In this document: positions 9,183 through 30,323 of the stretch, one piece after another
Numbering within the stretch: position 1 is the first letter of the stretch
Layout of the letters: each line of letters starts with the position of its first letter
Source of the DNA: a virus
Reading direction: 5' to 3' (one strand)
Length of the DNA: 30,323 bases
Virus record (IMG/VR): IMGVR_UViG_3300017779_000089
Span: 1-30,323 of that record
Position numbers and translations under genes: made by a program
The notes under the pieces: model-generated
Told to the model about the DNA's origin: nothing
The model's database searches: none
The model's input: only the letters and a program-made list of their open reading frames with translations

Positions 9183-10782
9183 AATATTTATTTACTATTT
9201 CTATTACTTTTACTGAATATTTACTAGGTGATGAATTCAAGTGAAACTCTGTCCATGCTTCTGCAAGAAATTCATCAATATTAGTAGATGCATAATTACC
9301 TAAATACACATTGTTAAAAGCAACTGTATTTTTATTTTTTAAATATCCTCGAATTTCCTCTAAATATTTTAATCTCAATTCTTTTAGTTCAGTAAACATT
9401 TGCTGACCTTTATTTGAAATGTTTTTTGCCATTTCCTGTCTAGCAGTTCGTGATGTTATCAAAACATGAGCCATTTCGTGTACAGGTGTAGCCAGATGAA
9501 ATTTGTCTGGGTCAATAGCACTTTTACCTCTTAAATCAAAACCATCTCTGTTAATATTTATTGGGTTCATTTTATCTCTTGATATTTTACTGTATTTATC
9601 ACCTAAATTTATTACTGCTGATCTACCTGATAAAAATGGTTGATAAAATCCCCAATTACTTCGTGTTGACTTAAATCTTAATTTTATTACTGAAAGATTA
9701 TGCCAAGTCGAAAAATTGTATTTTTTAAATAATTTTTTTATTTCTGATTGAATTTGATTATAATCATTTAATGTTCTGTTTCTTGATAATTGTAATTTTT
9801 CTATTGTCAATCCAACATCTTCAAATGTTTCTTTTATCTGTGTTCTAAATTGATTTAATGTAGTAGCAACTCCCTCTACTAGTTCATCACCAGCAGAAAC
9901 AATAGTTTGTACTACAGTATTAGTGATTGTTTCTAAACTAAAATTAGGTATTCTTGATTCACCAATACCTACACCAATATCAGATATTTCTGTAATAGGT
10001 ATTGCACCCTCATCAGGTATAGTAATCATCCTACATCTACAATTTACAGTATTTTTAGCTGAACCCTCTCCAGGCCGCATAATCTCCTCGCCAAAAACAT
10101 TAAAAGGTTCACCCATTCTTCTTTTTTGTCCATTTACCGATTGATGCCAATTTCTAACTCTTGAATCGCCCATAGTAACCCACTGCTTAGACAATTGATC
10201 TTCTGAAAACATTGTCTTACTTGATTCTTCTATGGCAAAGTTAGATGCCCTTGTGCTTTCTGTTCTTACTAATCTTCTTGCTTGATAATCTGAATATTGA
10301 TTAAATTTTTTTCTAAGTATTCTCCCTTTTTCTCTTTCACCTAATCTCATAAAGTCAGGATCTTGCATTAATCTCTGTGTTAAATTAATTAGAGCTGTCT
10401 TTGCTGTACCGGAAACTAAGGGCGCATTATATGCAGCTATTAAGGATCCATAAGTAGAAAATGCATTAGTCCATTTTGGAGTAAAGGGTTTTGGATCAGC
10501 TTTTTTATGATATTTTTCAAAAGATCTAAAATACCAATTAGCTATGTGCAAACCAATATCGGTATATAAGTCCTGGTATTTTTTTACAAAATCCTCTACT
10601 TTAAATAAATTATTAGCACCTGTAGAACCTGTGTCTAAAAAGTTTTCTATTCCTTTATAATAGTTTTTTTTATAAAACTTTCTGATTGATGGTGTTATTC
10701 GCCTTTCTATTGTATCAACTTTGGAATCAAACTCTCTAACATATTTGTTAGATGTGAAATCTTTTATTTGTGTTGATATCAT
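9172..10782 (-). CDS. Head morphogenesis protein (Mu gpF-like) fused to HExxH metallopeptidase
   Basis: The product has 536 residues. Residues 1-255 are a Mu gpF / SPP1 gp7-like minor head protein, with R-R-L-V-R-T-E-S-T-R (169-178), K-Q-W-V-T-M-G-D-S-R-V-R-x-W-H (199-213), and N-C-R-C-R (247-251). Residues 260-340 are a low-complexity helical linker. Residues 345-536 contain a zincin motif H-E-M-A-H (435-439) and a downstream N-I-D-E-F-L-A-E-A-W (501-510) that can supply the third zinc ligand (Glu504 or Glu508). The gpF part associates with the portal inside the head. The peptidase could be packaged and injected, or act in assembly. It overlaps the portal stop by one base. Confidence 0.85.
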   Translation of the reverse strand: MISTQIKDFTSNKYVREFDSKVDTIERRITPSIRKFYKKNYYKGIENFLDTGSTGANNLFKVEDFVKKYQDLYTDIGLHIANWYFRSFEKYHKKADPKPFTPKWTNAFSTYGSLIAAYNAPLVSGTAKTALINLTQRLMQDPDFMRLGEREKGRILRKKFNQYSDYQARRLVRTESTRASNFAIEESSKTMFSEDQLSKQWVTMGDSRVRNWHQSVNGQKRRMGEPFNVFGEEIMRPGEGSAKNTVNCRCRMITIPDEGAIPITEISDIGVGIGESRIPNFSLETITNTVVQTIVSAGDELVEGVATTLNQFRTQIKETFEDVGLTIEKLQLSRNRTLNDYNQIQSEIKKLFKKYNFSTWHNLSVIKLRFKSTRSNWGFYQPFLSGRSAVINLGDKYSKISRDKMNPININRDGFDLRGKSAIDPDKFHLATPVHEMAHVLITSRTARQEMAKNISNKGQQMFTELKELRLKYLEEIRGYLKNKNTVAFNNVYLGNYASTNIDEFLAEAWTEFHLNSSPSKYSVKVIEIVNKYYGK

Positions 10783-13061
10783 TATTCATCGTTTTCTAAT
10801 TGACCTAATTTTCTTTGGGAATAAGATAGCATACTTTGACCACCCCAACCTAAGAATGCAACATAACCTTTATCCTTCCATGGTGTATCTCTAAAATCAG
10901 GATTTATTTTATTATAACCACCACCTTTAGTCCTAGATAAAAAGCTAAAAGTTCTTTTTAAAACAGACAAGCTTAATTTTTCCCTTGATATTAATTGGTT
11001 CATTCTTGCAAGTCCTATAGATGTCATTCCATCTACCTCAGCTCTACCATATTTATCAATCCAGTTCTTTACTCTTTTTGCATTGTTAGTTGCTGATTGT
11101 GGATAATCATCATATCCCTCAGCTTTAGCTTCTTTCTTGCTACTTAATGGATGGCCTTTTGGTAATAGATCTGTATCATGTTTACCACTTCTAAATCTAC
11201 CATTTCTCAGACAGTAAAGGAAAGAATTGCACCTGGCATATGCCCACTGGTCAGCACTTGATACACTTGGCCTGACACTACTAGGGTTGGTATTATATGC
11301 GCCAACACCCCTTCTAAAAACAGCTTTTAATGTTCTTAGATTTGTTTTTTGCCATGACTTTGTGACTTTTTCATTGTGATCAGATACTTTTTTTTTTAGC
11401 CCTTTTTCAACTGTAGCTGATATCTTTGCTTTTTCTTCATCCTCATCTTCTTTATGTGGTTTACCATAATGATATTTATTATCCTCTAATGCAGCTGCAT
11501 ATTCTTCATGTGTTTCAAAAGGCATATATATTTCCCTGCCATCATAAGTGTGTGTATGATATCCAGTACCATTACCATCCCAACCCATTTCTCTAGCTCT
11601 GTCCTCTGCTTCTTCTTCTGTTGTATAAGCATCTACAAATGCTTCTATTCTTTCTTTATATACAGTGTTGTATTTATATGATTTATCCATCTCTGGATTG
11701 TCTATATTTATATCAACAACTGGTGCATCAATATCTTGATTATCTATAGGTAAAAGGTTTGCTGGAAAATAATAATCATTCATTGATGGTGTATCATTAT
11801 CATTATCATAATTCATAGCTGATCTCTTTTCATTTGGTGTTAGCCACCATGCTTTTGACATTTGATCAACTACCTTATCAGTTTCTTCTTGTAATTCTGG
11901 TATAACAGAAAAATCATATTCTATACATATATCTTCTCCATACTTAGGAGATAACCATCTATTTAATTCATCTTGTATTTTCTGTAGTTCTGGTATAACA
12001 CAGTTTTGATATAGAGCTTTTTTAGCTTCTTTCATGTTATTATAGGTAGAACTTTCTGTGTTGTTTAAAAGCTGTACAGGTACGTTAAATATGTTACATA
12101 AATCTTTTATAGATGCATTATACTGTTCTATTAATGATAGATCAGCAGTTGATAATCCAAAATTTACCCAGGATAATTTTTTAGGTGTTATAATTACATC
12201 ACCAGCATTATCAGATCCTTGATGTTGCCTTCTAAACTTATCTTTTAGTTGTTGAGCTTGTACTTCATTTAGATCACCTTCTTCTGACATCAATATCCCT
12301 CTGCTAGTTTGGTTTTGTAAAAACTTGACACCTGTTTCAACAGCTTCATTGTTAGTTGTCATAGATCGCATACCAGCTTTTAATGGTGATTGTCCATACA
12401 TATGTGAACCAGAACCATCATAATAAGGATTAAAATCTTTAACATGCAGCATATCTTCTGCTGGTATTCTATATGTACCATTGTACTCTATTGTATAATA
12501 ATCAATAGGTTTCATTAGACCAGCTGTATTAATCTCTACTACATGAGATGGCATAACATATAGCTCTGTGTATTTACCTACATTTTGTCCTGTATCTGGG
12601 CCTAAACCATACACATATCTATTACCGGTTAGTTTACCAAATGCAACCAGCTCAGATATAAATGATGCATATGATTGTGCTGGATTTGGCCTATCCAATA
12701 ATTTATGTAAATCAGTGTGTTGTAATTCTTCTAATGCATGTTTCTTTAGCATGTTAGCTTTTAATATTACAGAAGAATCAACTGTTCCTGAGGATAATGC
12801 TTTATAGCTTTTATATTTATTATCATCAACTTTTCTATATATATGATAGGGTATGGTTGATGCAGCTTTTGTAATAATGTTTATTATGGAGTAAACTGTG
12901 GCATTTTTTCTGTAACCTTCATTAATATAAGTATTATCATTATCTGGATTCCACAGAATACTGTTGCCTAAATAATTATAGATAGCCCTGTTATACTGTT
13001 CATTAGTTTGCTGTGATTTATTAGTTATTAGATATCTTAACCTATCGAAGAATGATGCCAT
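10782..13061 (-). CDS. Portal protein with long C-terminal extension
   Basis: The product has 759 residues. Residues 1-440 are a standard siphovirus portal (Phage_portal, PF04860 type). Visible landmarks are Y-S-I-I-N-I-I-T-K-A (57-66), L-L-D-R-P-N-P (121-127), G-N-R-Y-V-Y-G (146-152), D-M-L-H-V-K-D-F-N-P (203-212), and F-N-V-P-V-Q-L-L-N (325-333). Residues 470-530 hold a short H-T-H-T-Y-D-G-R-E-I-Y-M-P motif. Residues 545-759 form an extra domain with G-A-Y-x-T-N-P-S-S-V-R-P, D-Q-W-A-Y-A-R, G-K-H-D-T-D-L-L-P and G-Y-V-A-F-L-G-W-G-G. Typical portals of this class are about 400-500 residues, so roughly 250 residues are added. The portal ring forms the packaging channel. The role of the extension is unknown. 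Confidence 0.9.
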   Translation of the reverse strand: MASFFDRLRYLITNKSQQTNEQYNRAIYNYLGNSILWNPDNDNTYINEGYRKNATVYSIINIITKAASTIPYHIYRKVDDNKYKSYKALSSGTVDSSVILKANMLKKHALEELQHTDLHKLLDRPNPAQSYASFISELVAFGKLTGNRYVYGLGPDTGQNVGKYTELYVMPSHVVEINTAGLMKPIDYYTIEYNGTYRIPAEDMLHVKDFNPYYDGSGSHMYGQSPLKAGMRSMTTNNEAVETGVKFLQNQTSRGILMSEEGDLNEVQAQQLKDKFRRQHQGSDNAGDVIITPKKLSWVNFGLSTADLSLIEQYNASIKDLCNIFNVPVQLLNNTESSTYNNMKEAKKALYQNCVIPELQKIQDELNRWLSPKYGEDICIEYDFSVIPELQEETDKVVDQMSKAWWLTPNEKRSAMNYDNDNDTPSMNDYYFPANLLPIDNQDIDAPVVDINIDNPEMDKSYKYNTVYKERIEAFVDAYTTEEEAEDRAREMGWDGNGTGYHTHTYDGREIYMPFETHEEYAAALEDNKYHYGKPHKEDEDEEKAKISATVEKGLKKKVSDHNEKVTKSWQKTNLRTLKAVFRRGVGAYNTNPSSVRPSVSSADQWAYARCNSFLYCLRNGRFRSGKHDTDLLPKGHPLSSKKEAKAEGYDDYPQSATNNAKRVKNWIDKYGRAEVDGMTSIGLARMNQLISREKLSLSVLKRTFSFLSRTKGGGYNKINPDFRDTPWKDKGYVAFLGWGGQSMLSYSQRKLGQLENDE

Positions 13062-21929: not shown

Positions 21930-23894
21930 TTAAAATTTTGTTATAAAATCATTGGTAATATCATCATTTTGATTAGGCAAATGCATAACCACTTTGAAAC
22001 AATTTCTTTTAACATCATAGTCCATTGAATCAATAATACAACTCACTGGTTCTTGTAAAACAGATGTTGTAAAATTAACCCACAATTTATTATGTGGCCC
22101 AATAGGGTCATTAGAATTGTTGTATAAACTACCCTCATATCTTACTACAAAATCTCTAAAATCATTCATTACTTGTTGAGTTAGTATTTCTTCTACACTT
22201 TTTAAAAAATTAGTTTTATCTCTTGATCTAAAAAAACTACCAACTACATTACTGTATAATTTATTTGTTAAATAAATATCTTTTTCAACCTTAACACCTG
22301 ATATATCTGCTGTTCGTTTCCTTTGATTAGTCAATAGATCAAACTTTTCAAATATTGGAGTTCTATTGTTATTGTCATCAATATATTCACTTTCAAATAT
22401 TATTGAATCATAATATATAGCTATAAACCCTGATGTAGTAGTTGTCTGAAAAGCACCATAAATGTTTATAAATACAAGCCATGAACCACTAGGTAATGTT
22501 TTTATTGGAAAAGAATAACTTTTCCATCTTTTATTGGTGATTACATCTACATTATTTTTAGTGTCAGCACCAACCCAATTATCAGAATTATCAGACCAAA
22601 ATTGATCTGCACCAGCTCCAGGGCCTTGTCCAACTAATTTAATTTGATATCTAAAACCCCTGTCATTACCAGATGTTGAATCGAAAAAAACATTAAATTT
22701 TAAATTATAAGCTATATGTGATGATGATGTTTGATCAGATCCATTTGTGTTTACTGCAACTACAGTAGTAGCATTTGCAGTTGATTGTACAGTTGTTGAT
22801 TTAAGTGATCTATCACCCTGGAACATAAAATCTGTAACTATTGTGCTGTTTGTTAAAGTCCAATTAGTCGATCCATGTTCAAAACCTGGATTACTAATCT
22901 GGTTAGTTGAAAATCTACCATCCATAACATGTTCAATACTAAATTCTTTTAATGGTCGCAAAAACTCTCTTTGCAAATCTGCATTTATTGGTTGTAAATT
23001 AGTTGGCACTGATTGTAACACATCTACTGTACTTGTTGATTGATAAACACCACTTGAATTATAAATAAAATATTTAATTGATTCAGTGCCATTATTTTGT
23101 AAAGATGTAGTTTCAGCAGCTCTTATACCTGTTGGAACAGTACCAGAATTTGCTGTTGTTGCCGAGCTATCTTTAACAGATTGCTCACTGTAACTGGAAT
23201 TATTTATAATGTACCATCTGCCAAAACTTTGGAATATTCTTGCATTACTAAATTTTAGTATTTGCTCTAATACATTTTTTGCTGTTCTTAAATCGACACC
23301 GGATTTTAAAAACACACCTGGACTAACACTAACTTGATCATAAAAAGTGAAATCAGAACCAGCTGCTCCTGACAATTGTATGTCGTTAGATATGTAAATA
23401 TCTAAACCTAAATTAATGTTGTTTAAGATGTTTGTTATATAAAACATAAGATCTTTACTTCCAACACTTGTTAAGTCAATTGGAGCTGTAAATCCATTTA
23501 AACTACCTAAACCATCGTAACCTTTTAGAGTTATTGGAAATGGTTTTGATATAACAGATTCGCTAAACTGATCAACTAACAGCCAACCTTCCCAATATGT
23601 TTGATAATTATTACTTGCATCTTTATAAGATATTTTAATTTTATACTCTCTTTCATCAGCTGTATAAAAATCATCATATGTAACTGTATCTGTACAATAT
23701 AAATTTATAGCGCATGTAGATCCAATTATTGGGTTATAAAAATCATCATTATTATTCCAGGAAATTGTAACTGGTGTGCCTGTTGAAATAATAGGCAAAA
23801 CACTACCAGTGTAGCTATCTTTTGAAATCTCTATCTTTTTACCCTTAGAATTATCATCATCAAATTCTAATCTATATTTAACACCATAAGCCAT
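21930..23894 (-). CDS. Distal tail / baseplate protein with carbohydrate-binding-like insert
   Basis: The product has 654 residues. The N-terminal part (1-330) has K-D-L-M-F-Y-I-T-N-I-L, L-D-I-Y-I-S-N-D-I and N-V-L-E-Q-I-L-K-F-S-N-A-R-I-F-Q-S-F-G-R-W-Y-I-I-N-N. This is a pattern I associate with baseplate or distal tail proteins of Bacteroidota phages. Residues 331-505 start with N-Q-I-S-N-P-G-F-E-H-G-S-T-N-W and look like a CBM4/9-type jelly-roll carbohydrate-binding module. The C-terminal 150 residues resume the tail fold. It follows the tape measure (1-nt overlap), the normal position for a Dit/hub protein that contacts the cell surface. Confidence 0.75.
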   Translation of the reverse strand: MAYGVKYRLEFDDDNSKGKKIEISKDSYTGSVLPIISTGTPVTISWNNNDDFYNPIIGSTCAINLYCTDTVTYDDFYTADEREYKIKISYKDASNNYQTYWEGWLLVDQFSESVISKPFPITLKGYDGLGSLNGFTAPIDLTSVGSKDLMFYITNILNNINLGLDIYISNDIQLSGAAGSDFTFYDQVSVSPGVFLKSGVDLRTAKNVLEQILKFSNARIFQSFGRWYIINNSSYSEQSVKDSSATTANSGTVPTGIRAAETTSLQNNGTESIKYFIYNSSGVYQSTSTVDVLQSVPTNLQPINADLQREFLRPLKEFSIEHVMDGRFSTNQISNPGFEHGSTNWTLTNSTIVTDFMFQGDRSLKSTTVQSTANATTVVAVNTNGSDQTSSSHIAYNLKFNVFFDSTSGNDRGFRYQIKLVGQGPGAGADQFWSDNSDNWVGADTKNNVDVITNKRWKSYSFPIKTLPSGSWLVFINIYGAFQTTTTSGFIAIYYDSIIFESEYIDDNNNRTPIFEKFDLLTNQRKRTADISGVKVEKDIYLTNKLYSNVVGSFFRSRDKTNFLKSVEEILTQQVMNDFRDFVVRYEGSLYNNSNDPIGPHNKLWVNFTTSVLQEPVSCIIDSMDYDVKRNCFKVVMHLPNQNDDITNDFITKF

Positions 23895-25957
23895 TATATA
23901 ATTCTATCTCTGTTTCTATTTGCTCTTTGTAAAGCAACCACTAAATCTTGACCTTTTAACTCAAATTCACCAGAAACATTTACAGATTGTCCTCTATCAC
24001 CAATCATTGATTTTAATTTATCTAAAGGAGCTATTACCTCAGGGTTAGCTCTTGCTCCACTGTACTCTCCGACTAGGCCAAGAGTTGGTGTAGAAACAAT
24101 ACCGCCTTTTGCAAATGCTACTGCGCCACCTTTAGCTTTACCTATTTCAGCTGATTTGTTCTTAAAAAACTTTCCTAAAGCGATTAAAGCAACACCAGCA
24201 GCAATAGCACCCAATCCACCTAATTTTTCAAATGCTTCTTTAATAGCTATCAAACCCACACCAATTTTAATCGCTAATTGACCTAGTTGAATTGCCATTG
24301 TTCCAATACCACCAAGTAAAACTTGACCTAAACCACCAACACCTTTACCAGCTCCAGAAATTGCATCTCCTAATGCCTGTCCTATACCCATAGCCATATT
24401 AGCTAATCCAGATTTGACTATGTTTGACAAACCCTCATTCATTTGTTGTGCATTTAACTGCATTTGCAATGCCTTAACTTTTTGTATTTGTTCTGTTTCA
24501 GATAATTTTTCTTCTAATAATATATTACCATCTGCAACACTATTTGCTAACAAAGTAGCTGGGTCTTTGCCAGTAAATTCTAAATCACCCGTTCCTAAAC
24601 TAGAAACACCTGTTACTTTACTTCGTGCAGTTTTTGGTGGCTCTGTGTTTATAAGAGTTTTTTCTTCTTTTTTTAGTGCAATAAAATCTTCAAGTAATTT
24701 TATTTGTGATGCAGCTTCATCGTTTTCTTTTTGCATTGCACCAGTTTTTCTTTGAACACCATCAGCATCTTCTAAGATTATTTTTTTTCTTGCAAAACCA
24801 AGTTTATTATTTTCATCAAGTATTTTTTTATTAGCTTCAAATGTTTCGTTAAGTTTTGCCAACTTAGCTTCCGCTTCATCAATTTTTAAGTTTTTAAGGT
24901 TTTCACCAAATGCATCAAGTTTTGCAGCATCACTTGCTTTTTTTAAACTCTGTAATTTTATAACAAGACCAGCTATTGCTGATGCAACAAGTATAAAGGG
25001 GTTTGCCTTCATTGCTGTAGTTAATGCGATAAATGCTATTCTCACTTTTGGTAAAATACTCAACACAGCACCAAAACCTATTGATAATTTACCAATTATA
25101 ATAAGTAATGGCCCAATAGCAGCTGCTATACCAGCAACAAACAGTGTAAACTTTTTCATAGCTGGAGACATATCTTCTAATTTCTTAGCAAAATTTCTAA
25201 AAACTATAACTAAATCTTTTGCTATAGGTAATAATATTTTTCCAAACTCTACAGCAACATCAGATACATCACCTTTTAATTGTCGCATTTGGTTTGCAAA
25301 ACTATCCTGTGTTCTTGAAAAATCACCTATTGCTTTACTTGATTGTTTTGCAGCTAATTGAAATGTTAATTGTGCTTTTGCTACCCTATCTAATTCTTTA
25401 AAAACTAAACCTTGATCAGCAGCAAACTCTTTAAGATCTGTTTCAGTAATAGCTATACCCAATGATTTAATGCTTTCTCTTTCACCTAACAATGCTTTTG
25501 TTAATGCCTGTGATGCACCCTCAGCTCCACCAGAAAAGTTTGTGAATGATGCTAAATCAACAGCTAATTCGTTTACCTGTGTAGATAACTTAAGAGCTTC
25601 TGATTCAGCAAAACCAAAACCAACTAAAAGATCACCTGTATTACTAAGTAAATCCTTAGCAGCTAGAGATGACAACCCAAATGATTCCTTAAATGTTTTA
25701 GCTGTAGCATTCGCCTTTTCTTGCATTGAGCTAAATACTGTGTTAAACTTAGCATCAGTTTCTTCAAAATCAGATGCCATTTTAATAGCAGCTCCACCAG
25801 CTAATGTTAAAGGTAAAGTGAACTTCAATGATAAATCAGCACCTATCTTACTTGCTCTTTCACCAAATGCTTTTAGATTTTTGGATGATTTGTTTAAAGA
25901 TGAATTAAGAGATGTAGCATCACCTAATAACCTTACTAATAATCTTTCTTGCGCCAT
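23894..25957 (-). CDS. Tape measure protein
   Basis: The product has 687 residues. The N-terminal helical part (1-260) has the phage tail tape measure (PhageMin_Tail) character, with A-S-D-F-E-E-T-D-A-K-F-N and alternating Ala/Leu-rich helices. Two long hydrophobic regions follow (about 265-330 and 510-595), separated by a charged coiled coil (330-440). It sets tail length, and at about 0.15 nm per residue a tail near 100 nm is expected. An exact TAnnTTTG box lies 14 nt before the ATG. It lies directly after the tail assembly chaperone pair, as in other siphoviruses. Confidence 0.9.
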   Translation of the reverse strand: MAQERLLVRLLGDATSLNSSLNKSSKNLKAFGERASKIGADLSLKFTLPLTLAGGAAIKMASDFEETDAKFNTVFSSMQEKANATAKTFKESFGLSSLAAKDLLSNTGDLLVGFGFAESEALKLSTQVNELAVDLASFTNFSGGAEGASQALTKALLGERESIKSLGIAITETDLKEFAADQGLVFKELDRVAKAQLTFQLAAKQSSKAIGDFSRTQDSFANQMRQLKGDVSDVAVEFGKILLPIAKDLVIVFRNFAKKLEDMSPAMKKFTLFVAGIAAAIGPLLIIIGKLSIGFGAVLSILPKVRIAFIALTTAMKANPFILVASAIAGLVIKLQSLKKASDAAKLDAFGENLKNLKIDEAEAKLAKLNETFEANKKILDENNKLGFARKKIILEDADGVQRKTGAMQKENDEAASQIKLLEDFIALKKEEKTLINTEPPKTARSKVTGVSSLGTGDLEFTGKDPATLLANSVADGNILLEEKLSETEQIQKVKALQMQLNAQQMNEGLSNIVKSGLANMAMGIGQALGDAISGAGKGVGGLGQVLLGGIGTMAIQLGQLAIKIGVGLIAIKEAFEKLGGLGAIAAGVALIALGKFFKNKSAEIGKAKGGAVAFAKGGIVSTPTLGLVGEYSGARANPEVIAPLDKLKSMIGDRGQSVNVSGEFELKGQDLVVALQRANRNRDRII

Positions 25958-25993: not shown

Positions 25994-26341
25994 TTACAAT
26001 TCTTCTTTATTTTTATAGGTTTTTGCTTTTTTTATTTTCTTTTTAAAATCCATAAAACTCTCAATATCTGATTTTGGCTTACCTCTATCTAAATAGGTAT
26101 CTTGGGGTAAAGGAAATAATTTATCAGGTAATATCATTTGTGATTTTTTTGTACAATTTACATTATAAACCATTGCACTTAGATATCTAATCTGTTCCCA
26201 TTGTAGATTGGAACGAATCATGTATGATTCACCAAGTAGTTGATTCTCTTTCCAGGTGTTTATCCAGAACACATCTGGATTTAAGCCAACCTGACCTATA
26301 TAATAATCAAGTAAAGTTTCCCAATCAAGTTGGCTATTTAC
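25994..26341 (-). CDS. Tail assembly chaperone extension (T part, made by -1 frameshift)
   Basis: This frame has no good start of its own; the first in-frame candidate is a GTG at 26272. It is open back to the slippery GGGAAAG at the end of the preceding gene. Slipping -1 there adds V-N-S-Q-L-D-W-E-T-L-L-D-Y-Y and about 100 further residues, giving a 239-residue fusion (124 plus 115). The segment includes S-N-L-Q-W-E-Q-I-R-Y-L-S-A-M and a Lys-rich C-terminus. This is the lambda gpG/gpGT arrangement, where the T domain binds the tube protein and tape measure during assembly. The tape measure gene follows 36 nt downstream. Confidence 0.85.
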   Translation of the reverse strand, partial: VNSQLDWETLLDYYIGQVGLNPDVFWINTWKENQLLGESYMIRSNLQWEQIRYLSAMVYNVNCTKKSQMILPDKLFPLPQDTYLDRGKPKSDIESFMDFKKKIKKAKTYKNKEEL

Positions 26342-26712
26342 TTTCCCTTAGTAGATCTTTTGATGTTTCTATCAATGCCCATATTAAGATCATTACCTAA
26401 GATCCTAGATTGTGTCATTGATTCAATAATGTCTTGTAATTGTTCTGCTGTAAAATCTTCTAACCACAAACCAACAGTGAATTCATTATAATCTATTTCA
26501 TTTGATTGTTCTTGGTCATTAGCCAATAAAGCTGAATAAACTAAAGCTCTTATTGTACTCATATTAAAACCATTAGTGAATATATCTGCTAGATCATTAA
26601 GTTCAATGTTTAGTAAATCAGTAAAATTACACCAGAAATTCATGCTGAAATGCATGGTTCTTTTTTTACCACCTAACTTAATAGTGTAGTAACCTCTCTT
26701 TTTGTTTGCCAT
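26338..26712 (-). CDS. Tail assembly chaperone (gpG-like)
   Basis: The 124-residue product is placed between the tail tube and tape measure genes. It has a helical character with N-F-W-C-N-F-T-D-L-L-N-I, a helix I-R-A-L-V-Y-S-A-L-L-A, and F-T-A-E-Q-L-Q-D-I-I-E-S-M. Size, position and the frameshift signal at its 3' end identify it as the short form of a gpG/gpGT-type chaperone. A hairpin lies 17 nt before its start. Confidence 0.8.
   Translation of the reverse strand: MANKKRGYYTIKLGGKKRTMHFSMNFWCNFTDLLNIELNDLADIFTNGFNMSTIRALVYSALLANDQEQSNEIDYNEFTVGLWLEDFTAEQLQDIIESMTQSRILGNDLNMGIDRNIKRSTKGK
26341..26347 (-). other. -1 ribosomal frameshift site G GGA AAG
   Basis: The minus strand reads GGGAAAG immediately before the TAA stop (26338-26340) of the chaperone gene, with GGA and AAG as zero-frame codons. 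This is the X XXY YYZ form and the same heptamer as in lambda G-T. The -1 frame is open from here to 25994. Confidence 0.85.
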
Positions 26713-26728
26713 ATTTATAAAGTTAAAG

Positions 26729-26746
26729 GGTATAGTTCCCTATACC
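26729..26746 (-). other. Hairpin in the leader of the tail chaperone gene
   Basis: GGTATAG (26729-26735) and CTATACC (26740-26746) form a 7-bp stem with a 4-nt loop. An alternative pairing of GGGTAT (26728-26733) with ATACCC (26747-26752) excludes it. On the minus strand it is followed by only a short T stretch, so it may attenuate rather than fully terminate transcription between the abundant tube protein and the chaperone. Confidence 0.45.
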
Positions 26747-26766
26747 ATACCCTATATTAAAATTTA

Positions 26767-27198
26767 TTAGTTAGTTGCTTTAGTAATAGCTCCTGTAGTT
26801 GTAATTGATCCACTAAATGACACTGGTGATTCCATTTCACCTGTCATTGTAACATTAGATAAAAAACCTTTTCCAGAATATACTGCATCACCTGCTTCAG
26901 CTGTACCGAAACTCCAATCAACTTTAGTACCAGCGATAATAAAATCAGCTGATTCAATTGCATTATTAGCATGATCATAAGCTACTAAACCTTCAAATGA
27001 TATCTCACCTGATTTTAACCCAGCAATTACTTCTTGAAATCCAGCACTGTTTTTTGTAGTAGCTTCTGGTAAATCAGAAGAAATAGACAATTCACATGAT
27101 GTAGTATGTCCTACTGTTACTGTAGATCCAGGAGTTCCATCTGCTGTATCAAATTTTAATAATAGGTTAGTTCCATTAAATGGGCCGATTGTTGCCAT
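26767..27198 (-). CDS. Major tail tube protein (copy 2)
   Basis: The 143-residue product is beta-rich and Ser/Thr/Gly-rich, with L-P-E-A-T-T-K-N-S-A-G-F-Q-E, A-G-L-K-S-G-E-I-S-F-E-G and K-G-F-L-S-N-V-T. It resembles the TP901-1-type major tail protein family that stacks into the tail tube. It is clearly paralogous to the gene just upstream (shared L-P-E-x-T-T-K-x-S-x-G-F-x-E and G-L-K-S-G). A TATATTTG box lies in the gap before it. Confidence 0.8.
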   Translation of the reverse strand: MATIGPFNGTNLLLKFDTADGTPGSTVTVGHTTSCELSISSDLPEATTKNSAGFQEVIAGLKSGEISFEGLVAYDHANNAIESADFIIAGTKVDWSFGTAEAGDAVYSGKGFLSNVTMTGEMESPVSFSGSITTTGAITKATN

Positions 27199-27229
27199 AT
27201 CTTATATATTTTTTAAATTATTGATAGCA

Positions 27230-27237
27230 CAAATATA
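27230..27237 (-). promoter_or_regulatory. Candidate -7 box (TATATTTG) for the tail tube gene
   Basis: Exact TAnnTTTG on the minus strand in the 51-nt gap between the two tube paralogues, 31 nt before the ATG. It could boost expression of the second copy. Confidence 0.3.
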
Positions 27238-27249
27238 CAAATAAAAAAA

Positions 27250-27708
27250 TTATAGAGTTTGCCAGTTTTCAGATATAGTTTGCCATTGTCTAAATATGTT
27301 TTCCCATGTTTGTCCATCACTTACAGTAAAAATACCAGTCAAATCTATTTCTAAATTAAATGTTGTAGCATTTTCAAACTCTGCTGTTTCAGTAACAGAT
27401 TTGATAAAACCTTCACCTCTTAGTACAAGATCTGGATCAAGTAATTCTTTAACATAGAACACTGCTTTTTCTTTCGTAATGATCATATCTAAAAGAGTGT
27501 TGTATTGTAGTGTTTCAGAATAATCTGTAACACATTCGCATGTTATATTACCAGATTTTAAACCAACTATAAATTCTTTAAAACCATTACTTTGTTTTGT
27601 GGTAATTTCTGGGAGATTTGCATTTATATCAAATGAAACACTTTTAGAATGCCCTATGACTGTGGTATCTTTTACTAAAAGAAAATTAGAGCCATTTATT
27701 ACTGGCAT
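27250..27708 (-). CDS. Tail tube-like protein (copy 1)
   Basis: The 152-residue product is paralogous to the next gene: V-I-G-H-S-K-S-V-S-F-D-I, L-P-E-I-T-T-K-Q-S-N-G-F-K-E, V-G-L-K-S-G-N-I-T-C-E and G-E-G-F-I-K-S-V-T. It differs by a C-terminal extension rich in Trp and Gln (F-R-Q-W-Q-T-I-S-E-N-W-Q-T-L). One copy may be the main tube subunit and the other a minor tube or tip variant. Which is which cannot be told from sequence. Confidence 0.75.
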   Translation of the reverse strand: MPVINGSNFLLVKDTTVIGHSKSVSFDINANLPEITTKQSNGFKEFIVGLKSGNITCECVTDYSETLQYNTLLDMIITKEKAVFYVKELLDPDLVLRGEGFIKSVTETAEFENATTFNLEIDLTGIFTVSDGQTWENIFRQWQTISENWQTL

Positions 27709-28349: not shown

Positions 28350-28874
28350 TTAACAATTACCCCCACCAATTATTGCACCACTAGAATTTGTTTGTATGAA
28401 TTTATTTGTGCTAAAACCACTAGTGTCAAATACTTGATAAAATCCAGCGCTAACTGGTGTAAATCCTGTTGCTGTTGTGTAGGCAAAAAATGTCCCATCT
28501 AATGCACTAGGGTATTGATTGTTGCCATCGGTGTGATAATATTCTACGCCTGATGGTAAACCAGCTACACATGAACTTGAAGAACTTGATGCACTAAAAA
28601 TAAATTGAAAAGCTGCCCTTGCTAAATTCTGTTCATAACCCCTAAATTCACCCATTGATTGAGGGTCAGAACCATCTGGTCTACTTGTCGATGGATTTAA
28701 TAAATTTACAGCTGGGTAACTAGTACCAGAACCACTTGAATTACCACCACTTAATCTTGATAAATCTGATAAATGTATAGGGCTTGTTATTGTTCCGCTT
28801 GATGTATAACCAAAACCTTTTCTTTCCCTAGCTAGTTTTAACATCTCTATACTACCACTTGTAGGTACTGCCAT
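28350..28874 (-). CDS. Virion-associated protein, fibre-linked (174 aa)
   Basis: The N-terminal motif is V-P-T-S-G-S-I-E-M-L-K-L-A-R-E-R-K-G-F-G-Y-T-S-S-G-T-I-T-S-P-I, with L-S-D-L-S-R-L-S-G-G following. It recurs, from memory, in small structural proteins of marine phages. The rest is Ser/Gly-rich with a beta-type domain (about 90-170). Overlap with the fibre stop by one base (TAATG) suggests a fibre or baseplate partner, perhaps a receptor-binding tip. The function is inferred. Confidence 0.6.
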   Translation of the reverse strand: MAVPTSGSIEMLKLARERKGFGYTSSGTITSPIHLSDLSRLSGGNSSGSGTSYPAVNLLNPSTSRPDGSDPQSMGEFRGYEQNLARAAFQFIFSASSSSSSCVAGLPSGVEYYHTDGNNQYPSALDGTFFAYTTATGFTPVSAGFYQVFDTSGFSTNKFIQTNSSGAIIGGGNC

Positions 28875-30323
28875 TACTTAATTTGTTTTTTAAGTTCTTC
28901 TATCTCTGCTTTTAATTCTTTTATTGCTTCAAGTAGTATTGGTGTTAAACCTTGATGTCTCATAGAAAGCATACCATCTTCATTTTTTCTTACAAGTTCT
29001 GGCACAACTTTTTGTACATCCTGCGCTATAAAACCTACATCTTCTTTTAAATTTGTAATCCCTTTTTCTTTCCAATCAAATGTTACACCTTGTAATTTAC
29101 TAACCTTATCTAAAGCTGATTCAATTGGTTTTATATTTTTTTTTAATCTTTTATCCGATGGTGAACCAAAAGCAACTACATCTCCCGTTACAGTCAAAGT
29201 ACCAGTAGATGATATGCGCATCCTTTCGTTTGAACCATCACCTGTTGAATTTGCATGAAATGACAAACCACTACTTTGACCTGTCCAAATCTGCATTAAA
29301 TTACTATTTATAGTTATACCAGAATTGACATGCATCAACAACCCATTACCACTGCCTGTTTCTCTTATTTTTACACTACCATCAACATCTAATTTTTCAC
29401 CAGGCGATGTAGTTCCGATTCCTATGTTTGTAGTATCTCCTGTTCCAACACGCATAACAAAGTTATTGTTAGTGTAGAAACTGTGTTGTGAATTTGTTGA
29501 GTGACCTGAAGCGTGATATTGTAAATCATAATTAGGACCAGTTGTAAACCCTTGTCTTGTAGTACCACTATTAAATAAATATAATTTTAAACTTGCATCT
29601 GTATATCCATTAGAATAATCATTATTGAATAACATTCTTGTAGGACTTGCAGTTGAGGTTAGTGTACCACTTCCTCCTACAGTTGTTATAGTTGTTCCAA
29701 TTCCTATATTTCCTGAACTGTCTATACGCATTTGTTCTGATTCACCTGAAGTTCCAGTAAAGAAACTCATATTACCAGCATTATCAGTTCTTATAGTACC
29801 ATTTCCTACTTGAGTTCCAGAATTAAACACTCTAAAAAATACACCTGCAGTATTATTGTCTATAGAATTGATAGCAGCTCTTACTGTTCCAGTATCTTCT
29901 ACTTCTAACTGCCAAGATGGGCTAATAAGTCCAATTCCTACATTTCCTGTTGAACCTTGTAAAAACATTTGAGCAGCGGTTGTGTCGCCATCAGCTGTAA
30001 ATCTTATATTACCAACAGAACCATATCCTGTTTTTAAATTTAAATCTGCATCACTTCCATGCCCTGTCGCATTAAAATGACCAACCCAACTTCTAAAAGT
30101 TCCACTACTATTTTTAAATCCTACATGAGCATTTGCGCCTTGTACACTTATTGTACCGCTAGCACCAACACCTGTTCCAACAACCACTAAAGGTGAAGTA
30201 GGCGAAGCTGTACCGATTCCTACTTTACCATTCAAATCTAAAGTAAACTGTGGATTTGTTCTTGCATTTATACCATTGGTAGCTATATTTAAATTGCCCG
30301 TAGAAGAACGATAATCAAATGTA
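28874..30323 (-). CDS. Tail fibre, C-terminal part with S74 chaperone domain (5' end cut by window edge)
   Basis: The frame is open from the right edge to 28874 (482 codons seen). An internal TTG at 30235 is not needed as a start. Shaft repeats of the form [NK]-[VI]-G-I-G-x-x-[ST] with following L-x-V occur at least four times about every 80-100 residues. The last 94 residues are a Peptidase_S74 intramolecular chaperone: S-D-K-R-L-K-K-N-I with the catalytic Ser (codon at 29156-29158) and Lys five residues later, then V-G-F-I-A-Q-D-V and a terminal coiled coil. The domain trimerises the fibre and then cuts itself off. It overlaps the next gene by one base. Confidence 0.88.
   Translation of the reverse strand, partial: TFDYRSSTGNLNIATNGINARTNPQFTLDLNGKVGIGTASPTSPLVVVGTGVGASGTISVQGANAHVGFKNSSGTFRSWVGHFNATGHGSDADLNLKTGYGSVGNIRFTADGDTTAAQMFLQGSTGNVGIGLISPSWQLEVEDTGTVRAAINSIDNNTAGVFFRVFNSGTQVGNGTIRTDNAGNMSFFTGTSGESEQMRIDSSGNIGIGTTITTVGGSGTLTSTASPTRMLFNNDYSNGYTDASLKLYLFNSGTTRQGFTTGPNYDLQYHASGHSTNSQHSFYTNNNFVMRVGTGDTTNIGIGTTSPGEKLDVDGSVKIRETGSGNGLLMHVNSGITINSNLMQIWTGQSSGLSFHANSTGDGSNERMRISSTGTLTVTGDVVAFGSPSDKRLKKNIKPIESALDKVSKLQGVTFDWKEKGITNLKEDVGFIAQDVQKVVPELVRKNEDGMLSMRHQGLTPILLEAIKELKAEIEELKKQIK

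Follow-up and report, generated by a model that had tools for sequence, protein, structure and literature searches.

A probable programmed −1 ribosomal frameshift with a covarying downstream hairpin at the tail chaperone locus of uncultured marine phages

IMG/VR virus record IMGVR_UViG_3300017779_000089 was analysed over a stretch of 30,323 nt (positions 1 to 30,323, hereafter the window), in which two overlapping reading frames lie on the minus strand between genes for tail proteins, the second of them without an early start codon. The question raised by this locus is how the second frame is translated. A sequence-only reading had proposed a lambda-like −1 frameshift for the tail assembly chaperone, a proposal that is supported by the heptamer, its phase, the gene order and a comparison of 161 loci. 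On this comparative evidence, a programmed −1 ribosomal frameshift very probably lets a single start codon serve for two tail assembly chaperones.

The overlapping frames and their neighbours in the window

The zero-frame gene (26338-26712, minus strand) has 124 codons and ends in ACT AAG GGA AAG TAA, with the heptamer GGGAAAG (26347-26341), which is in X_XXY_YYZ phase, immediately followed by the TAA codon (26340-26338). The −1 frame begins just past a −1-frame stop, reads GGG AAA GTA AAT AGC CAA CTT GAT TGG ... and stays open for 115 codons after AAA, up to a TAA at 25996-25994, its earliest ATG, GTG or TTG being a GTG at 26272, 23 codons beyond the slip. The extension thus covers 25994-26341 (minus strand), and a fusion of 239 aa with the junction ...STKGK-VNSQLDW... 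is predicted. These coordinates bear out what had been read from the sequence about the heptamer, in zero-frame phase immediately before the stop of the 124-aa gene, and about a −1 frame open for 115 codons without an early start. It had also been stated that the ribosome would meet the stop right after slipping, and this has to be reversed, as slipped ribosomes would escape the TAA and unslipped ones would meet it. The 26 main coding sequences of the window (7423 codons) contain a single GGGAAAG in slip phase, that of the chaperone gene, and about 90 X_XXY_YYZ strings of all types. The AAG of the heptamer is a rare choice for lysine in the window (538 AAA to 94 AAG codons).

The frame pair is placed between the gene for the tail tube (major tail) protein upstream (26767-27198, minus strand; Phage_tail_2, 9e-14; phrog_1407, 6.5e-24) and that for the 687-aa tape measure protein downstream (23894-25957, minus strand), which matches several PHROG tape measure profiles (best 9.9e-18). 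In the direction of transcription, the order tail tube, frame pair, tape measure is that of V-G-T-H in lambda.

Like all 35 family members compared (35/35), the 124-aa protein has a match to phrog_2115 'tail protein' (E 9e-8), and its AlphaFold model (pLDDT 77) matches the fold of phage proteins named 'Tail assembly chaperone' (E 2.5e-4 to 1e-2). Profile, predicted fold and gene position support its identification as a tail assembly chaperone in the role of lambda gpG. The extension may be a T-like chaperone domain. Its model reached a pLDDT of 84 with few fold matches, its family members matched Phage_TAC_6 (0.0015) and Phage_tail_T (0.006) weakly, under the curated cut-offs, and its family consensus weakly reached Cellulophaga and Bacteroides phages, with hhalign probabilities of 95.5% for gp55 of Cellulophaga phage phi18:2 and 92.3% for Bacteroides phage F4. 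A 247-aa viral protein, A0A0K1LMC7, was matched by the zero-frame model (E 9e-4) and weakly by the extension model (E 0.09), a pattern to be expected if it is a natural fusion. No meaningful match was found in the PDB by sequence for both proteins or by fold for the zero-frame protein, nothing was found in a direct comparison of the extension with lambda T, and the window proteins had no tblastn match among isolate phages. NCBIfam matches to D-Ala--D-Ser ligases were taken as spurious.

Other features of the window were also recorded. Two tail tube paralogues lie in tandem (26767-27708), both matching phrog_1407 (6.5e-24 and 3.9e-17), and between the tail tube and chaperone genes there is a separate 10-pair hairpin (26727-26753, minus strand; AGGGTATGGTATAGGGAACTATACCCT) with a weak T-tract, which could be an attenuator or terminator. 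The portal protein (10782-13061, minus strand) is extended at its C-terminus by about 300 residues, some of which weakly match DUF5824. Two ORFs that are open-ended at opposite window ends (1-1785 and 28874-30322, minus strand) resemble halves of one tail fibre with a terminal Peptidase_S74 chaperone domain; a direct junction of the two shifts the reading frame by one base. Such a split tail fibre suggests a circularly permuted genome.

Heptamer, stop codon and hairpin in related loci

Four viral-contig scans and one genome scan gave 161 distinct loci, the window included. The scan of the genome collection yielded two contigs only, filed as Woesearchaeota and as a Gammaproteobacteria MAG, which were not used as evidence of the host; one relative (L125) has an extension whose translation ends in ...IGRASCRERV..., as if the contig ran into a sequencing adapter. 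A canonical heptamer was found in phase within the overlap in all 161 loci (GGGAAAG in 119, AAAAAAA in 41 and GGGAAAC in one), and in 160 of them the −1 frame holds the extension, the exception (L229) being a contig that ends too early. At the level of sequence comparison, this degree of conservation excludes chance. Relatives without the heptamer but with both frames, a finding that would speak against a frameshift, were looked for and are absent among the 161 loci, as the 41 loci without GGG carry A_AAA_AAA. According to a tree built from 133 fusion proteins, GGGAAAG gave way to AAAAAAA on two occasions, and therefore slipperiness appears to have been kept rather than the letters themselves.

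The zero-frame stop is TAA in 157 of the 161 loci, and its distance past the heptamer is 0 nt in 94, 3 nt in one, 9 nt in 41, 12 nt in 12, 15 nt in 12 and 27 nt in one, with several shifts of position on the same tree. In two loci (L158 and L139) TCA is found where their neighbours have TAA, with heptamer and hairpin retained. The idea that an immediate stop is required was rejected on these two grounds, the TCA codons and the displacement by 3-27 nt in relatives. Thus, the immediate stop pointed out in the sequence-only reading is present in the window and in 94 of the 161 loci, but it is not a conserved requirement, given a range of 0-27 nt in relatives. Judging from this comparison, slipperiness and phase are kept throughout, the stop position is free and the immediate stop is lineage-specific.

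Alignment with related phages, which had been put forward as a check along with the frameshift itself, supports the frameshift and also reveals a stem on which the sequence-only reading was silent. In the window, this RNA hairpin covers 26284-26335 (minus strand), with arms at 26335-26323 and 26296-26284 and a conserved 7-bp core pairing 26334-26328 with 26291-26285. The downstream fold of the window has a z-score of −4.2 and a 13-bp stem beginning 5 nt past the heptamer, and the mean folding z-score for the 80-nt downstream stretches of 88 GGGAAAG loci was −3.2. Among 39 representatives, the core shows 98.2% standard pairs, with double changes at four of its seven pairs (31 double-changed cells); its covariation score was reached by none of 500 shuffles, and it is the top covarying helix among all those possible in the alignment, with no other 6-bp helix equal to it. 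In the 79 scored GGGAAAG loci, from which L083, L130 and the GGGAAAC locus L084 were left out, the own arms of a locus pair 7/7 in 78 cases, compared to 42% for arms mixed between loci, and the spacer from heptamer to core is always 6 nt, or 5 nt in the +15 clade.

A rather improbable alternative is that the stem only reflects conserved codons and protein sequence, without selection on the RNA, and that the shift runs on the heptamer alone. Both arms do lie within conserved codons (SQL and GQVG), and covariation may be inflated by the relatedness of the sequences: the swaps at columns 14 and 63 number seven on the best tree of the upstream protein, only two of them on strongly supported (starred) branches. 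However, this pair occurs as G-C (22 rows) or C-G (16 rows), with column 63 in step with column 14 in 38 of 39 rows, also where serine is encoded by AGC vs. TCC. Because GGC and GGG both encode the invariant glycine whose third codon position is column 63, protein constraint cannot explain these swaps. The V/A/T residue also tracks its partner (L238), and control stems slid along the alignment drop to about 50% paired or less. The arrangement of heptamer, 5-6 nt spacer and stem, as read from the aligned loci, is that of a textbook bipartite −1 signal, in which the usual distance from heptamer to structure is 5-9 nt (PMC7618472), and the hairpin would stimulate slippage.

The hairpin is not universal in the family. 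By arm pairing locus by locus, the conserved stem is absent from the AAAAAAA clades, L083, L130 and L084. In L083, L130 and one AAAAAAA clade, the 5′ arm can pair about 20 nt further downstream, at most a hint that the 3′ arm has shifted behind an unchanged spacer. Stimulators seemingly are lacking at some tailed-phage frameshift sites, according to a review.

Other candidate signals were considered. A pseudoknot between a TTGG loop and a downstream CCAA was unsupported, being broken in rows with TTT for TGG, and a dnaX-type internal Shine-Dalgarno was rejected, with SD-like 4-mers upstream of the heptamer in 2 of 153 loci. A second hairpin (columns 69-85) showed weak covariation, and a search of Rfam gave no match.

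Selection on the −1 frame upstream of any start codon

If ribosomes terminated at the TAA and restarted at a nearby weak start in the −1 frame, the extension would be made without any fusion. Termination at the TAA does take place just upstream of the downstream frame, some relatives have a TTG or ATG 9-14 codons beyond the slip, and the extension gene of the distant relative Cellulophaga phage phi18:2 has an annotated ATG. Nevertheless, this reading is highly unlikely. ATG, GTG and TTG are absent from the last −1 stop through 14 codons past the slip in 105 of the 161 loci, and the position of the first start codon in relatives is scattered from codon 4 to codon 68. The 23 codons that follow the slip, a stretch devoid of any consistent start codon, had a mean entropy of 0.40, 0.38 and 0.95 bits at codon positions 1, 2 and 3 in 86 distinct ungapped loci, and the residues D, Y, G, Q, G and P are invariant in the −1 frame between the slip and the first possible start. 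Independent initiation cannot yield these invariant residues, because they precede any consistent start codon, and it also leaves unexplained the invariant phase of the heptamer and its double replacement by AAAAAAA. The pattern indicates, at sequence level, that purifying selection acts on the −1 frame upstream of any possible start.

Slippage of RNA polymerase on A9, giving the −1 frame in the mRNA at least in the AAAAAAA clades, is hardly credible as an explanation: these clades have an uninterrupted A9 run, and phi18:2 also has an A-run, though with its extension in the +1/−2 frame, but the GGGAAAG site of the window has runs of only three, to which such slippage is inapplicable.

Known systems, proposed mechanism and significance

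The programmed ribosomal frameshift favoured here is close in kind to that of lambda G/GT. As claimed in the sequence-only reading, the heptamer is identical, with GGGAAAG at the end of G in J02459, and the G_GGA_AAG slip, its −1 direction and its place between tail tube and tape measure genes are shared. The zero-frame stop of lambda lies 15 nt past the heptamer, compared to 0 nt in the window, and the window family has a covarying hairpin whereas the fold in lambda is known from a single sequence only. Downstream of the lambda GGGAAAG (L082, 517-597), a z-score of −3.1 was obtained, with a stem starting about 7 nt past the heptamer. A scan with lambda T returned only loci 99-100% identical, useless for covariation, and no stimulator for the lambda site was found named in the open-access literature, within its incomplete coverage. 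The g-t frameshifts of HCTV-1, -2 and -5 belong to viruses of archaeal hosts, and the passage describing them (PMC5009743) does not mention a hairpin. With bipartite viral −1 signals (PMC7618472), the window family shares the heptamer, the 5-6 nt spacer and the downstream stem, whereas the window differs in coming from a tailed DNA phage, in its large loop (about 26-36 nt) and in the zero-frame stop inside the spacer. The covarying hairpin and the stop within the spacer are the distinctive points of this probable frameshift of the lambda G/GT kind.

Cellulophaga phage phi18:2 (gp54/gp55) and Bacteroides phage F4 (BacuniF4_00039/00038) have the same gene order, with an overlap at an A-run, and both pairs are annotated as separate hypothetical genes. 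In phi18:2 (L357, 1474-1514), the extension is in the +1/−2 frame across the A-run and has its own ATG, so that −2 shifting, transcriptional slippage or separate initiation are possible. In F4 (L358, 1420-1480), it is in the −1 frame at A_AAA_AAA within a long A-run, and the two hypothetical genes are probably one frameshifted chaperone.

In the proposed mechanism, most ribosomes would complete the 124-aa protein and terminate at the TAA right behind the heptamer, and a minority would be paused with their decoding sites over GGA and AAG, owing to the hairpin that starts 5-6 nt past the heptamer. Both tRNAs would then slip back to GGG and AAA, the TAA would be missed and 115 more codons would be read to give the 239-aa fusion. 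If lambda gpG/gpGT is a guide, coating of the tape measure protein would fall to the short form and recruitment of tail tube subunits to the extension; in lambda, G binds the tape measure and T the tube protein, with a ratio of short form to fusion of about 30:1 (PMC5009743). The corresponding ratio here would be set by the slip, and frameshifting at HK97-like sites has been measured at 6-7% (PMC3711429). We infer the occurrence and frequency of slippage, as well as the binding partners of both forms.

A more elaborate design, unlike that of the lambda site, in which the spacer stop and the hairpin act jointly and a clade has moved its 3′ arm, seems to us unlikely. If it were true, slippage of a ribosome paused by the hairpin would be in competition with termination at the TAA, and the chaperone ratio would depend on the speed of termination in addition to slipperiness.

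The terminase is nearest to those of Bacteroides phages (about 40% identity). As both the terminase and the extension homologues in Cellulophaga and Bacteroides phages point to it, a Bacteroidota host, and with it the very different host group named in the sequence-only reading, is likely from these sequence relationships. The lambda-type tail chaperone frameshift would therefore be extended to a large family of uncultured marine phages, probably infecting Bacteroidota, whose loci annotation pipelines would split into two genes or of which they would miss the second. Within the family, the heptamer has been replaced twice and the stop displaced several times, which amounts to a set of natural experiments.
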